From a virus, in IMG/VR virus record IMGVR_UViG_3300027972_000044, positions 1 through 29,530 of that record: a DNA stretch of 29,530 nucleotides; one strand, 5' to 3'. The notes under the pieces were generated by a model. The model searched no databases. It saw only the letters and a list, made by a program, of their open reading frames with translations, and had not been told where the DNA came from. Position 1 is the first letter of the stretch. Each line of letters begins with the position of its first letter. Both the position numbers and the translations under genes were made by a program. Below, piece after piece: positions 12,972 through 27,040 of the stretch.

Positions 12972-13000
12972 TAAATATATTTACATTAAAATTAATTAAG

Positions 13001-14683
13001 ATGTTCAAAGCAAAAATCAAACCCCAAAAACAGACATCTGAATATTCTGTAGTTAAAACTCAGATAGGTGGATTCATAAAAGCAGGTCTTAAAGGATCTG
13101 CTGAAACAAAATCAGGCAATCTTGCAAAGAAATATGCTCATCTTGATGATCCTTTTCTTACTCAGTTTGGATCTGTTGGACAGTATAAACAGAAAAGATC
13201 TTTTGAGGAGATAGCAAACGATTGTGAATCTCTCTGGTCAAAAGACAAAAGACTTTCAATAGTCTTTATGGTTTATCTGAGAATAATAACAAGAATTGTT
13301 GTATTCTTTGATGGCACATCAACCAGAGTAGCTCAGAAAGGTGCAGAACTGAAACATGAGTCTATCATGAGGATGATCTGGCTCTTTGTTAAAAACGAAA
13401 GTTCTTTTTGGAAGAATATAGGTCTCTTTATATCTGTTGGATCTTGGAAAGATATCTTTACCATGCTTCAGTATGATTATATGTATCATGGTTGGAAAGA
13501 CAGAGTTCTTAATTGGGATAAAATAACCAATTTTATTCTTACAGGATTAGAGAATTCAAACACTGTTAATCTTGTCAAGAAATATCTTCCTCAGTTAAAA
13601 GCAAGATCTAAATGTACCACTATTGAATCAGAAGCTGATACTTATATAGCTAAGTTTATATGCCATAAAATATTTGGAGAAAATGAATCTCTGAAGATGG
13701 CTAGTTATAAAAAGTATAGAAAGATGAAATCTTCCGGTACAGCTCATTCCTGGCAACAGTTGATCAGCCAAAAAAAATTTGATCGTATTGATTTCAGTAA
13801 GATACATGGTAGAGCCTTATCTCTTCTTGTAAGAAGTAAGTTTCTTAAAAATCATGATCTTGTTGATAAGTATAATGCTTGGATTGGTGATCCTGAAACA
13901 AAAGATGTTAAATATACTGGATTTGTTCATGATTTATTTCAGACTTGTGAAAAATACAGAACTCTTGTTTCTATACCTGTACAAGAACAAACCACTATAA
14001 TTAAGCAATTTGATACTCTTGTTAAAAAAGCAGGAGAAAAGCCTATGACTAAGTATATTGTAGTCAGGGATACTAGTGGTTCAATGCGTAGTCAAGCCAA
14101 AGGATGTAATATGTCCAGTGGTAATATTGCCAAGGCTCTTTCATTATACTTTAGTCAATTTCTAACAGGAGCTTTCTCTAATGCCTGGATAGAATTTAGT
14201 CGTGAAGCTTTAATGCATTACTGGTCTGGAAATACTATTCTTGAAAAATGGTATAATGATAGTTCTAATTATGTAGGTAATACTGATTTTCTAAGTGTTA
14301 TACATCTTTTTATAAAGATAAAAGCACAAGGAATATCAGAAAGTGAATTTCCAGAAGGTATACTTTGTATATCTGATGGTGAATTTGACGGAGCATCATT
14401 AGCAGATACAAATGTAGAATACGCATTAAAACTACTTCGCAATGCTGGTTTTTCTGAAGAATATGTAAGAAATTTTGTTATTGTTCTTTGGAATATACCT
14501 AATATATTTTATTGGGATTCTACTACTAAATTTGAAACATATGAAGGATCATATCCTAATGTGTTTTATTTTGGTGGATACAATGCCAGTGTAATATCTT
14601 TTCTTTCGGATAAAGTAAAAACCACAAAAGAATTATTTGATTCAGTAATGGATCAGGAAGTTCTTAATAGAGTGGAATTGTAA
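13001..14683 (+). CDS. Ro60-like RNA-binding protein (TROVE/DUF2828-like with VWA domain)
   Basis: 560 residues, close to Ro60 in length. Residues 1-340 are helical and basic, with blocks such as DDPFLTQFGSVGQY, SKDKRLSIVFMVYLRI and SVGSWKDIFTMLQY, which fit the TROVE/DUF2828 helical-repeat ring that in Ro proteins binds misfolded RNA ends and Y RNA. Residues 350-550 form a von Willebrand A domain with a complete MIDAS: D357-T-S359-G-S361 (in VVRDTSGSMRS), T428 (GNTDF) and D459 (CISDGEFD). In bacteria Ro proteins act with a Y RNA and nucleases in RNA quality control. Here the gene is followed directly by about 970 nt of apparent structured RNA, matching the usual Ro/Y-RNA neighbourhood. Fold family is fairly sure; Ro function is inferred. 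DUF2828 proteins of unknown role are the alternative. Confidence 0.8.
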   Translation: MFKAKIKPQKQTSEYSVVKTQIGGFIKAGLKGSAETKSGNLAKKYAHLDDPFLTQFGSVGQYKQKRSFEEIANDCESLWSKDKRLSIVFMVYLRIITRIVVFFDGTSTRVAQKGAELKHESIMRMIWLFVKNESSFWKNIGLFISVGSWKDIFTMLQYDYMYHGWKDRVLNWDKITNFILTGLENSNTVNLVKKYLPQLKARSKCTTIESEADTYIAKFICHKIFGENESLKMASYKKYRKMKSSGTAHSWQQLISQKKFDRIDFSKIHGRALSLLVRSKFLKNHDLVDKYNAWIGDPETKDVKYTGFVHDLFQTCEKYRTLVSIPVQEQTTIIKQFDTLVKKAGEKPMTKYIVVRDTSGSMRSQAKGCNMSSGNIAKALSLYFSQFLTGAFSNAWIEFSREALMHYWSGNTILEKWYNDSSNYVGNTDFLSVIHLFIKIKAQGISESEFPEGILCISDGEFDGASLADTNVEYALKLLRNAGFSEEYVRNFVIVLWNIPNIFYWDSTTKFETYEGSYPNVFYFGGYNASVISFLSDKVKTTKELFDSVMDQEVLNRVEL

Positions 14684-14687
14684 TTAT

Positions 14688-14820
14688 AAAAGTAAACTCT
14701 CTCTGAAACTCACATAATTCTCACATCAGTAGTGAATCCTATAAAAGAAGAACCCTATGATACTAGTTTGGGTAGTGAGAAAATATCTAGGATTATATAC
14801 TAGTGAGAGTTTACTTTTTT
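14688..14820 (+). ncRNA. End-paired structured RNA, candidate Y-RNA-like partner
   Basis: AAAAGTAAACTCTC (14688-14701) pairs perfectly over 14 bp with GAGAGTTTACTTTT (14805-14818), enclosing 103 nt and ending in T residues. Inside, TTCTCAC (14718-14724) pairs with GTGAGAA (14775-14781), ACCC (14752-14755) with GGGT (14770-14773), and AATCCTA (14735-14741) with TAGGATT (14788-14794). The last pairing crosses the first inner one, giving a possible pseudoknot. A closed end helix, a large internal loop and a U-rich 3' end about 130 nt along are the layout of Y RNAs, and the element begins 5 nt after the Ro-like gene. I do not see the conserved Ro-binding helix of animal Y RNAs or a clear tRNA-like module. 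The outer stem and T-tract could also serve as terminator of the Ro-like gene. Confidence 0.6.
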
Positions 14821-14824
14821 AATT

Positions 14825-15006
14825 TAATCTTCTTGCTGAAGACAAACAGTAAGCTTAAAGGAGCTGCCCAAAAACGCTCATGGGTTCTTATAGTCATGCC
14901 AAGATGACGTTGTTTGTTGTAAGATAATAAATTTAGCCAGCCTTTGGCGATGGAACAGGCATAAAACACCGCCATTTATTCCGCTTGGAAACGGACAGGA
15001 AGATTA
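14825..15006 (+). ncRNA. Second structured RNA, about 180 nt, unknown family
   Basis: TAATCTTC (14825-14832) pairs with GAAGATTA (14999-15006), continued after a bulge by CTG/CAG. Inside are ACAAACA (14842-14848) with TGTTTGT (14911-14917) and hairpin GTCAT-GCCAAG-ATGAC (14893-14908). GAGC/GCTC and GCCCA/TGGGT (14861-14885) interlock and could be alternatives or a compact pseudoknot. GCCA/TGGC lies at 14936-14948 and TCCG/CGGA at 14980-14995. It is clearly GC-richer than its flanks. It resembles no tRNA, tmRNA, RNase P or 6S sequence that I recognise. It directly follows the end-paired RNA, so both may come from one precursor. Confidence 0.5.
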
Positions 15007-15031
15007 TTTTTGATAATTATATATAAATCTT

Positions 15032-15126
15032 AGGATGCAAAAACAGCAAGTTTAAATACTATATGTAAATAAACGATAGCTATGAGTATCTTAATAAGAA
15101 TAATTAGATAATAAAACTTGCATCCT
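15032..15126 (+). ncRNA. Diverged first unit of the hairpin string
   Basis: AGGATGCAA (15032-15040) pairs perfectly with TTGCATCCT (15118-15126). Two bases after the 5' arm comes ACAGCAAG, the same motif and position as in the six regular units downstream. The loop is longer (about 67 nt) and contains a copy of the linker-like TTAATAAG at 15091-15098. A TATTTTTG at 15005-15012 could be a -7 promoter element for the string, but no good -33 element precedes it. Confidence 0.5.
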
Positions 15127-15176
15127 GTTTATATTATTATTATCTTTGTAAAATATTAAAAGAAAATAGCTTAATA

Positions 15177-15584
15177 AGAAGTCATACAGCAAATATAAAA
15201 ATTTCAATATGGGTTTGAAAAACAATCGACTTCTGATAAGAGTAGTTACAGCAAATAACTTACTATAAGATCGCCAAAAATGACCTTTATGTAAAACTAC
15301 TCTGACAAGAATGGTTACAGCAAATAAATATATAACATACAATTTTGGTTTGTAAACGTTAAAGATACCATTCTGATAAGGTTAGATACAGCAAATAATT
15401 AAAAACAATAGCCTTCTAAGCTGTCAAGTTTGATCATTCTAACCTGATAAAGTCTCATACAGCAAATATATTAAGCAATAATCTGATAAATTATCTCGCT
15501 AAATACTGAGACTTGATAAGATTACTAACAGCAAATAATAAAAAATATACTGTAAATATATTCTATAAATAGTAATCTGATAAA
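15177..15584 (+). ncRNA. Tandem string of six covarying hairpins
   Basis: Six units repeat every 59-71 nt. Paired arms are 15177-15183/15228-15234, 15239-15247/15295-15303, 15308-15315/15367-15374, 15379-15386/15438-15445, 15450-15457/15507-15514 and 15519-15526/15571-15578. Stems are 7-9 bp, perfect, and different in sequence in every unit. Consecutive hairpins are separated by exactly four bases, GATA (once GACA), giving the apparent linker TGATAAG. Each 5' arm is followed within 0-2 nt by ACAGCAAATA, and the remaining loop of 32-39 nt is AT-rich and not conserved. Conserved single-stranded motifs with compensating stems argue for selected RNA (or single-stranded DNA) structure. Not a CRISPR array: the repeat is too short and interrupted by the variable arm. 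Function unknown; position suggests a link with the Ro-like protein. Confidence 0.75.
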
Positions 15585-24554: not shown

Positions 24555-25533
24555 TCTTAACGACTCTAAGTTTTTATCAAAAGGTATCACAAAAGAAGAA
24601 CTTTTAAAAAAGTATTCTGATTACGATATATTCAGATATTATTTAGGAGATTTTGAACTAGGAGATACTTATCACAGTCCATTAAGACACGATGATAGTA
24701 TCCCTAGTTTTAATATTTTTTATAGTAAGCAATATGGATGCTTATTATTTAAAGATTTTGCAGGTAGAAGAGGAGATTGTATCAGATTTGTTCAATATTT
24801 ACTAGGATTAAAAAGTTATAATGAAACTATTCAAAAAATAGATTTTGATTTATCTAGTTCTATACCTAGAAAAAAAGAAGTCAATCCTAAACAATATCAT
24901 GCTGAAAAAGCATCTAGTCATATAGAAATAGTTGCTAGAAATTGGAAAAATGCTGATTTTGAGTATTGGTCTTCTTATGGCATAACCTTACCTACTCTTA
25001 CTAAATATAATGTGTCTCCTATTGTAGGATATTATATTAATGATTTTTATATTGAAACAAAAGGACTTACTTTTGCTTATATAGAACATAAAGATAATAA
25101 ATATACTTACAAGATATATCGTCCATATGCTAGTAAAACTAATAAATGGAGAACTAATCATCCTTTTGGTGTACATCAAGGATATACTCAATTACCTGAA
25201 TCAGGAGACCTTCTTATTATCACTAAATCTTTAAAAGACGTTATGTCTATTTGGGAAATAACTAATATATCTTCTATAGGAATACAAGCAGAATCTACTT
25301 TTATTAAACAAACTGTAATAGAAGAATATAAAAAAAGATTTAAGAAAGTAATCACTTTATTTGATAATGATAGACAAGGTATTATGCAATCTGAAAATTA
25401 TAAGAAAATGTATGATATATCTTTTATATATATTCCTATAGAATATGGTTCTAAAGATTTTAGCGATTTAGTTAAGAATTATGGAAAGACTTTTGCTACA
25501 GATATATTAAATAAATTATTAAAAAATATATAA
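24544..25533 (+). CDS. DNA primase with Toprim domain and degenerate zinc domain
   Basis: 329 residues. The N-terminus follows the CHC2 fold of DnaG-type primases: SPLRHDDSIPSFNIFY and FKDFAGRRGDCIRFVQ correspond to CPFHxEKTPSF and CxxCGxxGDxIxFV. Here the zinc cysteines and histidine are replaced (S, R, and FAGRRG), so zinc binding is probably lost. A Toprim domain near 220-300 has LLIITKSLKDVMSIWE and VITLFDNDRQG with the metal-binding acidic residues. It would make primers for the DnaB-like helicase fork. Confidence 0.8.
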   Translation: MSIDLNDSKFLSKGITKEELLKKYSDYDIFRYYLGDFELGDTYHSPLRHDDSIPSFNIFYSKQYGCLLFKDFAGRRGDCIRFVQYLLGLKSYNETIQKIDFDLSSSIPRKKEVNPKQYHAEKASSHIEIVARNWKNADFEYWSSYGITLPTLTKYNVSPIVGYYINDFYIETKGLTFAYIEHKDNKYTYKIYRPYASKTNKWRTNHPFGVHQGYTQLPESGDLLIITKSLKDVMSIWEITNISSIGIQAESTFIKQTVIEEYKKRFKKVITLFDNDRQGIMQSENYKKMYDISFIYIPIEYGSKDFSDLVKNYGKTFATDILNKLLKNI

Positions 25534-25585
25534 TCTTTATCAAACGCATAGTTTATTTAAGTTAGGTATGTAAAATTTACGGATT

Positions 25586-25801
25586 ATGGAAAGATGGGAT
25601 TTTAAATTAGAAAATGAAGTTTGCCCCACTTGTAAAGGTGAAGGTAGTATTTTAGAAAGTGGCGATATGCACAGAAGCGAAGGATGGATACCTTGCCCAA
25701 TGAGATATTTTCAAGGACACGGATACCCCACCTGTGGGAAAGACGGCAAACTTCATTTTTCGGAATATGATATAAAAAACAAAAAACGATTAATGAAGTA
25801 G
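25586..25801 (+). CDS. Small cysteine-rich, DnaJ-zinc-finger-like protein
   Basis: 71 residues. CPTCKGEG matches the CxxCxGxG repeat of DnaJ, and further cysteines lie in IPCPMRYFQGHGYPTCGKDG. Such units bind zinc. Base composition is less AT-rich than its neighbours. The TAG stop is followed closely by further stops. Function unknown. Confidence 0.6.
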   Translation: MERWDFKLENEVCPTCKGEGSILESGDMHRSEGWIPCPMRYFQGHGYPTCGKDGKLHFSEYDIKNKKRLMK

Positions 25802-25891: not shown

Positions 25892-26230
25892 ATGAAAGAG
25901 CTATTTGAAAAAATCCACATAAAGAGTGAAAATGATTTGCCAAAGAAAGTTGGAAATTATCATGTACAACTTATAGATGGTAGCGGACACAGATTACGTT
26001 TTCCATTTAATGGTGATGTAGGATATAATGTTGATGTTAATTATTGGCTTAAAAACGTTGACTATTATCTCCGTCCTGTTGAGCAGAAGCCTGATTGCTA
26101 CGAGAAAGAGTTTGTCGAGTGGATGTTTAGTAAACAACAAGTATTTGACCATCAAGCTGGAGAATGGATAAGTAATTTAGATTACGCTTATTCTTATTGG
26201 CTAACCAACATTAAAAACAAAGCAAGATGA
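25892..26230 (+). CDS. Hypothetical protein
   Basis: 112 residues, aromatic, with strands (NYHVQLIDGSGHRLRF) and helices (EKEFVEWMFSKQQVF). Like the gene before it, it is less AT-rich than the flanking replication genes. It overlaps the next start by 4 nt. Not recognised. Confidence 0.6.
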   Translation: MKELFEKIHIKSENDLPKKVGNYHVQLIDGSGHRLRFPFNGDVGYNVDVNYWLKNVDYYLRPVEQKPDCYEKEFVEWMFSKQQVFDHQAGEWISNLDYAYSYWLTNIKNKAR

Positions 26231-26391
26231 CAGAAGAAGAAATTAAAAACGCTATAGTAGAATTATTATATGATTTACATACAAGAAATCTACTTAATGA
26301 ATATATTGTAAACAGTATATCTATTAATTTTAAAATAGATGCTGAACAATTATGCTCTATTAATGGTATAACATATAATCTAGAATCATGA
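26227..26391 (+). CDS. Small hypothetical protein
   Basis: 54 residues (MTEEEIKNAIVELLYDLHTR at the start). It overlaps the preceding stop and the next start by 4 nt each (ATGA), which supports translation. A likely helical N-terminus is followed by a strand. Unknown. Confidence 0.6.
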   Translation: MTEEEIKNAIVELLYDLHTRNLLNEYIVNSISINFKIDAEQLCSINGITYNLES

Positions 26392-26624
26392 AAAAATTAG
26401 GATTATTTATTTTATTAACTTTAATCTTTTCTTGTGAACCAATAGAAGATTATTGTTGGGATTGCTTACAAGTTAAAACTAACTTGAATGAAAGGATAGT
26501 ACATTATAATCCGTTTACAATGTGTAATATGACACAAGAAGAAATTGATGATTTTGAAAAAACATATACTTATATTAAATGTGGAATATCTAGTGTATTA
26601 TCTTGTGAAAAACAACGAGAATGA
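26388..26624 (+). CDS. Predicted lipoprotein
   Basis: 78 residues. The lipoprotein signal peptide MKKLGLFILLTLIFSC ends in a lipobox (LIFSC) with C16 as the lipidated residue; acidic E-P follows, common for surface-directed Bacteroidota lipoproteins. Several further cysteines (CWDC, CNM, KCG, SCEK) may form disulfides. It could alter the cell surface. It overlaps the next gene by 4 nt. Confidence 0.65.
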   Translation: MKKLGLFILLTLIFSCEPIEDYCWDCLQVKTNLNERIVHYNPFTMCNMTQEEIDDFEKTYTYIKCGISSVLSCEKQRE

Positions 26625-27040
26625 AAAAAGATAAAAAAGTTGAAAAACAAATATTACCTAATAAACTTAAACCAATTGTTAAGTTTAATAATGGTGATGG
26701 TGCTTTATTATGTAATCTTTGTTACATTATTATAAAAACTCCTCTTGATAAAAAAGAGTGGGATAAAAAAACTTCTTTAGTTCTATGTCCTAAATGTATT
26801 AAATATGTAGTAAATAATACAGAAACTAAATATAAAGAAGGATTTTTGCCAAAGGAACATATGAAATTATTATCCAGATTTCCCACTAAGTATATGAATA
26901 TGGATAAATATTGGAATGCATTACATGGTATTACTTTCATGATAACAGATGATGGCGTATTAACGTATCATTGTGATATCATAACAGCTCTTAATTGTAC
27001 TATAGAAAATAGAGACATGTATTTACATGAATGGGATTAA
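26621..27040 (+). CDS. Zinc-ribbon-like hypothetical protein
   Basis: 139 residues. Basic N-terminus (MKKDKKVEKQILPNKLK), then CNLC and CPKC about 30 residues apart as a zinc ribbon. The C-terminal half has aromatic residues (MDKYWNALHGITFMI). Unknown function. Confidence 0.6.
   Translation: MKKDKKVEKQILPNKLKPIVKFNNGDGALLCNLCYIIIKTPLDKKEWDKKTSLVLCPKCIKYVVNNTETKYKEGFLPKEHMKLLSRFPTKYMNMDKYWNALHGITFMITDDGVLTYHCDIITALNCTIENRDMYLHEWD

Follow-up and report, generated by a model that had tools for sequence, protein, structure and literature searches.

Pairs of a Ro protein and its Y RNA are already known from phages. Y RNAs of mycobacteriophages (Chen 2014, cited in PMC12282133) and putative Y RNAs of Listeria phage CKA15 are described in PMC12282133, where a phage Ro-like gene has a tRNA-mimicking noncoding RNA nearby and the Ro-like protein of CKA15 was found in purified particles. 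The bacterial Y RNA YrlA (RF02553), which partners Rsr/Ro60, binds the Ro protein (Rsr) through its basal stem and mimics tRNA with its other end (PMC8394870), and the tRNA-like domain of Salmonella YrlA has been proposed to be a competitive inhibitor of an anticodon nuclease (PMC7790460). The Class I RNAs of Dictyostelium (RF01414) are about 60 nt long, join their ends by a short stem of free sequence with compensatory changes, and come from single amoeba genes with the eukaryotic DUSE promoter; their protein partner is Rnp1A, which has an RRM. In the source paper, no Class I RNA turned up beyond the dictyostelids (PMC7919456). Phage tRNAs evade tRNA-cutting defences by replacing the tRNA that has been cut (PMC10264068, PMC12409363).

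The locus described here lies in a viral DNA of 29,530 nt (the window, which means the whole stretch analysed), and contains a gene for a predicted Ro60-fold protein and a tandem array of small hairpin units. We propose, with a probability of about 0.6, that it would encode a phage Ro ribonucleoprotein (RNP) whose tandem Y-type RNAs act as decoys for tRNA-cutting defence nucleases. Like YrlA, the phage units are located beside a Ro60-fold gene and have their ends paired in a basal stem. Some long loops of relatives carry a permuted tRNA mimic of D, T and acceptor arms. In contrast to YrlA, they form tandem arrays in which up to about nine different units follow one another, they have an ACAGCAA...CUGAUAA handle and anticodon stem-loop cargo, and the protein of the locus belongs to the DUF7788/DUF2828 family. 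The accessible description of the mycobacteriophage and CKA15 RNAs in PMC12282133 likewise mentions neither anticodon-loop units nor an array organisation nor a shared handle. The proposed purpose, overcoming anticodon nucleases, is the same as that of phage tRNAs, but the units, being unable to decode, would serve as lures. Four things are new here, namely the arrays, the cargo of anticodon stem-loops, the handle common to the units and the link to Class I RNAs; no description of any of them was found in the open-access literature searched.

Ro gene and hairpin array in the window

The features of the locus are as follows.

12999-13039, plus strand: unit-like hairpin spanning the start codon of Ro, 5' arm AGAUGUU (12999-13005), 3' arm GACAUCU (13033-13039), then G
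13001-14683, plus strand: gene for the predicted Ro60-fold protein (560 aa), HEAT-ring and vWA domain, DUF7788/DUF2828 family
14688-14818, plus strand: 131-nt element with a 14-bp terminal helix, a 103-nt loop and a T-run
15031-15127, plus strand: unit 0, arms TAGGATGCAA / TTGCATCCTG, ACAGCAA at 15043-15049, CUGU end, no recognised cargo
15141-15148, plus strand: TATCTTTG, resembling (resemblance only) a Bacteroidetes-type -7 element, just 5' of unit 1
15177-15234, plus strand: unit 1, cargo UUCAA-UAUGGGU-UUGAA (15203-15219), like a Pro(UGG) anticodon loop, but with A33
15239-15303, plus strand: unit 2, arms AGAGTAGTT / AACTACTCT, no recognised cargo
15308-15374, plus strand: unit 3, cargo UACAA-UUUUGGU-UUGUA (15338-15354), Gln(UUG)-type anticodon stem-loop
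15379-15445, plus strand: unit 4, cargo AUAGC-CUUCUAA-GCUGU (15408-15424), Arg(UCU)-type anticodon stem-loop
15450-15514, plus strand: unit 5, cargo AUAAU-CUGAUAA-AUUAU (15478-15494), Ile(GAU)-type anticodon stem-loop
15519-15578, plus strand: unit 6, cargo AUAUA-CUGUAAA-UAUAU (15545-15561), Tyr(GUA)-type anticodon stem-loop

The product of the gene at 13001-14683 is predicted to have a full-length Ro60 fold, with a HEAT-repeat ring followed by a vWA domain. The AlphaFold2 model built from 32 aligned phage proteins had a pLDDT of 87.9, and fold comparison aligned it with Ro60 (1yvr) at Z 17.8 and an rmsd of 4.3 over 427 aa. Each of the ten best fold matches was a Ro60/TROVE structure, among them Deinococcus RSR and Ro60 from Thermus phage phiLo, and unrelated vWA chains reached no more than Z 11. 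The MIDAS is intact (DTSGSM .. T .. DGEF), with little or no variation at DTSGSM, T428 and D459 across the alignment. By sequence profile, the protein matched the phrog_850 RNA-binding protein (3.6e-26). The gene had been labelled TROVE/DUF2828-VWA in the initial annotation, and a Ro60 fold is indeed predicted for its product. In the window protein, DUF7788 was the sole Pfam match, and the Pfam sequence model of TROVE matched neither this protein nor any of 32 relatives, in which DUF7788 (32/32), DUF2828 (19/32) and vWA_Ro60 (1/32) were found. A PDB sequence search with the Ro profile also returned no relative, and Ro60 was found by fold comparison alone.

The array, which the initial annotation overlooked, comprises seven hairpin units at 15031-15578, about 200 nt beyond the helix of the 131-nt element, and six of them are spaced 62-71 nt apart. 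Each unit is built to the same plan, namely a 5' arm, 0-2 nt, ACAGCAA, a variable loop, a 3' arm and then (C)UGAUAA or CUGU. In the window, UGAUAA precedes the next arm, and unit 0 has CUGU. The arm sequences are wholly different between units; the constant part, which we call the handle, is a 7-10 bp stem of free sequence with ACAGCAA after its 5' arm and CUGAUAA/CUGU after its 3' arm. When unit 6 was folded alone, the minimum-free-energy structure favoured another inner pairing. The folding energy of the array is not unusual (z -1.4), and therefore it was left out of the evidence. An Rfam scan of the window detected no RF02553 (YrlA), ROOL or GOLLD RNA. A sequence similar to TATCTTTG precedes the first unit in three other loci (L039, L040 and L041).

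The unit-like hairpin at the Ro start codon is possibly an autoregulation site for Ro. CATCTG (RNA CAUCUG) occurs 25-125 nt downstream in 15/17 loci with the start context AG-AUG-UU, window included, compared with 1.65 in codon shuffles, whereas loci with another start context show no excess (2/28 versus 2.0 expected); the Ro start codon can therefore be the 5' arm of a unit-like hairpin. RF01414 matches this site in four phages (L083, L086, L107 and L109).

Units in related phages and their linkage to Ro

Using a two-unit DNA pattern together with a protein search based on nine aligned Ro sequences, about 50 further contigs were collected. A one-unit DNA pattern gave mostly chance matches and was abandoned, and most matches in the genome-contig search had no array. 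The protein search by itself gave nothing with the single window sequence and 50 loci with the alignment. The stems of the units covary: 42 of 47 motif-defined units pair over at least 6 bp, compared with a mean of 4.5 and a maximum of 11 in 1000 trials in which the 3' arms were dealt to other units.

Linkage was measured on 44 non-redundant Ro loci that had been collected through the protein search only. At least one unit was present within 2 kb of Ro in 38 of these loci, and two or more in 31. The density was 1.02 units/kb near Ro (167 units) and 0.17 units/kb far from it (25 units), with 2 on the opposite strand. The position of the array varies from phage to phage: it precedes Ro in some and follows it in others, and a few have it at a distance of 1-2 kb. 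For example, Leptolyngbya phage Lbo-JY46, whose Ro is 47-50% identical to that of the window, has five units of the same plan with other arms, starting about 10 nt past the Ro stop. Units flanking Ro, often ending in CUGU, were also found in isolated phages, namely in Listeria phage P100, Enterococcus phages EFDG1 and VRE9_4, and Bacillus phages FADO and BcoS-136, and further ones in Mycobacterium phage Lumos, Staphylococcus phage 6ec and Campylobacter phage Los1. Cronobacter phage S13 and Synechococcus phage B23 have single candidate units, and neither Salmonella phage Munch nor Cronobacter phage GAP32 showed any. Judged from these sequences, the arrangement of Ro with a hairpin array appears to be common to many unrelated phages.

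The noncoding RNAs near Ro are, according to PMC12282133, the most transcribed parts of the CKA15 genome. When the published coordinates of this region (26,236-26,727) are placed on the sister phage cka16, they coincide with a ROOL RNA (26,195-26,746); the units of cka16 occupy 25,281-25,559. By position, the most transcribed region therefore corresponds to ROOL, and the published result is no proof of unit transcription. A ROOL RNA match (86 bits, below the cut-off of 99.1) is also present at 1333-1884 of the Listeria phage P100 locus (L132), 1 kb upstream of Ro.

The phage units closely resemble Class I RNA, judging by the short terminal stem with compensatory changes, the motif CUUACAGCAA / (C)UUACAGCAA after the 5' arm, the AAG...CUGU ends and a length of about 60 nt (PMC7919456), and convergence may also explain this likeness. 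Unlike the single amoeba genes, they stand in tandem beside a Ro60-fold gene. Matches to RF01414 at E <= 1e-3 were obtained in 19/30 phage genomes and 0/14 control genomes, and the best score (39.7) is below the 41.5-bit cut-off, so that we do not claim Class I membership. Through the shared handle, the hitherto orphan family of Class I RNAs would gain a first link to Ro/Y-type RNAs. Permuted-tRNA units of relatives are matched by the Rfam model of YrlA, with at most 44.9 bits against a 69-bit cut-off. This model also matches 7/14 bacterial control genomes, perhaps through neighbouring tRNAs; its hits were therefore used only as support.

tRNA mimicry by the cargo

The cargo was examined by comparing 72 distinct short loops with 59 real anticodon loops from 162 tRNAs predicted by ARAGORN, which are a mixture drawn from every fetched locus. 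In 20 of the 72, a real anticodon loop recurs exactly and is closed by 4 bp or more, compared with a mean of 0.34 and a maximum of 4 in 300 dinucleotide shuffles, which control composition but not every bias. With a stricter set of loops seen at least twice in real tRNAs, there were 17 matches versus 0.18. In the window, four of six loops matched (Gln-UUG, Arg-UCU, Ile-GAU and Tyr-GUA), with 0.03 expected and none of 5000 shuffles doing so. Here and in the relatives, the anticodon identities are read from short AU-rich loops.

Lys-UUU accounts for 11/30 canonical anticodon mimics and 4/156 tRNAs in the fetched loci (Fisher p 3e-7), and Lys-UUU, Thr-UGU and Asn-GUU together for 15/30 mimics and 18/156 tRNAs. 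Lys-UUU mimics are found, for instance, in units 2 and 4 of Lbo-JY46. Loops of the U36-A37 type make up 21/30 of the anticodon mimics. The window's own units include no Lys-UUU, Thr or Asn mimic.

A second type of cargo is a circularly permuted tRNA, which is present in 21 of 63 long loops in relatives compared with 0.1 expected; this D/T/acceptor module was seen in those 21 long units and in none of the window's own units. The order is T-arm, acceptor 3' strand, linker, acceptor 5' strand and D-arm, and the anticodon arm is missing. Nineteen permuted bodies retain at least 15/16 pairs, which no shuffle did, and when halves were swapped between units, 3.3 were kept on average.

Several other forms of cargo were observed. 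Position 33 is A, C or G instead of U33 in several anticodon-like loops (L029, L045, L096, L101, L132 and window unit 1), and such departures might make these loops uncuttable. Some units contain a nearly whole tRNA in normal order, with the acceptor stem lost or replaced by the handle (L088 6959-7019 and L040 833), and that of L088 is tRNA-Ile-like with 52.6 bits by the tRNA model. In a recurrent unit type, a T-arm follows a GCCTGG..GGTGG-like stretch (L021 6792, L022 7535, L045 618, L032 8078 and L097 6202), which is perhaps a tRNA elbow mimic. Two long loops, at about 1229-1390 of L045 (CGTAACTATAACGACTCTAAGGTAGC) and at about 6861 on the reverse strand of L022 (GGCCCTAAGGTAG), resemble 23S rRNA helices 69-71 by eye; a BLAST search with them against E. 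coli genomes found nothing, and this candidate was not retained. A guide-RNA array was also dropped, since the cargo mimics rather than complements tRNA.

Proposed function and alternative readings

In the proposed ribonucleoprotein, the Ro60-fold protein would associate with a tandem array of small Y-RNA-type RNAs, each of which would use the constant handle to present a different tRNA fragment, either an anticodon stem-loop or, in relatives, a permuted tRNA body. With the anatomy described above, the units are very probably Y-type ligands of Ro. The handle is the likely Ro site, because YrlA binds its Ro protein via the basal stem. The presented fragments would then be decoys that occupy host tRNA-cutting defence nucleases such as PrrC, PARIS AriB and others during infection. 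This lure function is the one we prefer, at roughly even odds, since the mimic excess fits the targets of PARIS AriB (Lys-UUU, Thr-UGU and Asn-GUU tRNAs, PMC12409363) and PrrC (Lys-UUU, PMC10264068) and agrees with the inhibitor proposal for YrlA. Against it stand the lack of Lys-UUU, Thr and Asn mimics in the window and the lack of recognised cargo in units 0 and 2. The permuted bodies have no anticodon loop, and therefore they cannot lure an enzyme that needs this loop. If the proposal is true, an RNA-lure strategy joins phage tRNAs and RNA ligases in phage counter-defence, and the anticodon stem-loops with named identities make the role of phage Ro directly testable against known anticodon nucleases. 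More tentatively, and with odds somewhat below even, phages of many hosts may share a modular decoy library, in which a Ro60-fold protein is combined with interchangeable handles, each displaying a tRNA piece that corresponds to the target of a host tRNA nuclease, and Class I RNAs may be the eukaryotic members of one superfamily.

The main rival, which we consider rather unlikely, is that the units are Y-RNA tethers whose tRNA-like cargo brings tRNA-binding proteins of host or phage (modification enzymes, PNPase or RNA ligases) onto the Ro ring, yielding machines that degrade RNA or repair tRNA. Y RNA serves as such a tether in the RYPER complex of Deinococcus. YrlA binds Rsr with its basal stem, and DusA and TruB use its tRNA-like domain as a substrate (PMC8394870), the Rfam YrlA model matches units, and some phage Ro genes are close to a gene for RNA ligase or tRNA-splicing ligase. 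However, a tether could do without a range of differing anticodons, and the Lys-UUU excess is left unexplained, although the prevalent U36-A37 type of loop is the one used by t6A enzymes.

It is very improbable that the array merely regulates the Ro operon as an untranslated region, with feedback protein-binding sites and a secondary likeness to tRNA. This reading draws on the unit-like hairpin at the Ro start codon in 15/17 loci with the AG-AUG-UU context. In contrast, the array itself is upstream, downstream or 1-2 kb away from Ro depending on the phage, and the tRNA-likeness of its cargo is far above chance.

It is very improbable that the Y RNA of the Ro protein is the 131-nt element itself (14688-14820), as the initial annotation held. 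The perfect 14-bp inverted repeat that it reported is present (AAAAGTAAACTCTC at 14688-14701 and GAGAGTTTACTTTT at 14805-14818), and begins 5 nt past the stop codon of the Ro gene as stated. The window has two such repeats, this one included, where a Markov null expects 0.1. There is also some structural signal, with a fold z of -2.3 and 2 of 200 shuffles equally good. Overlapping alternative arms were found at 14720-14741 / 14788-14809, but the suggested pseudoknot of crossing helices gained no support. The element matched no Rfam family and lacks the handle motif. No homologue was found around Ro in about 50 related phages (best E 0.32) or in about 130 fetched loci, and the element was rejected as the conserved RNA. 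Relatives with the same protein lack the helix, and unrelated terminator-like repeats stand there instead: 15/44 Ro loci have a perfect inverted repeat with a T-run that begins no more than 70 nt from the Ro stop, compared with 0.9 expected from shuffles, whereas it is the array that they have in common. This pattern fits a terminator or boundary hairpin, which is probably the role of the element in the Ro transcript. The broader suggestion that the phage Ro has an unfamiliar Y-type RNA of its own is supported, but the Y-type elements are the units at 15031-15578. Between the element and unit 0, the stretch 14824-15030 is GC-richer and folds well (-48.3 kcal/mol), with no Rfam match. The other long perfect inverted repeat of the window (25611-25625 / 25745-25759, 15 bp, arms about 120 nt apart) begins within a predicted gene at 25586-25801.

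Least credible of all is that the units are processed into functional or split tRNAs or into parts for tRNA repair, with permuted tRNAs being circularised and cut to mature tRNAs: the permuted bodies do have complete acceptor, D and T stems, but they lack the anticodon arm, anticodon arms sit in separate, body-less units, the handle stem occupies the place of the anticodon loop, and in Synechococcus phage B23 a similar handle appears to replace the anticodon loop inside an otherwise unpermuted tRNA-like RNA, which is given as 'tRNA-Undet' in its record.

Elsewhere in the window, the protein encoded at 28158-28958 matches the ribosomal protein S6 glutaminyl transferase family (phrog_2599), and its gene is another possible translation-related host-takeover gene.
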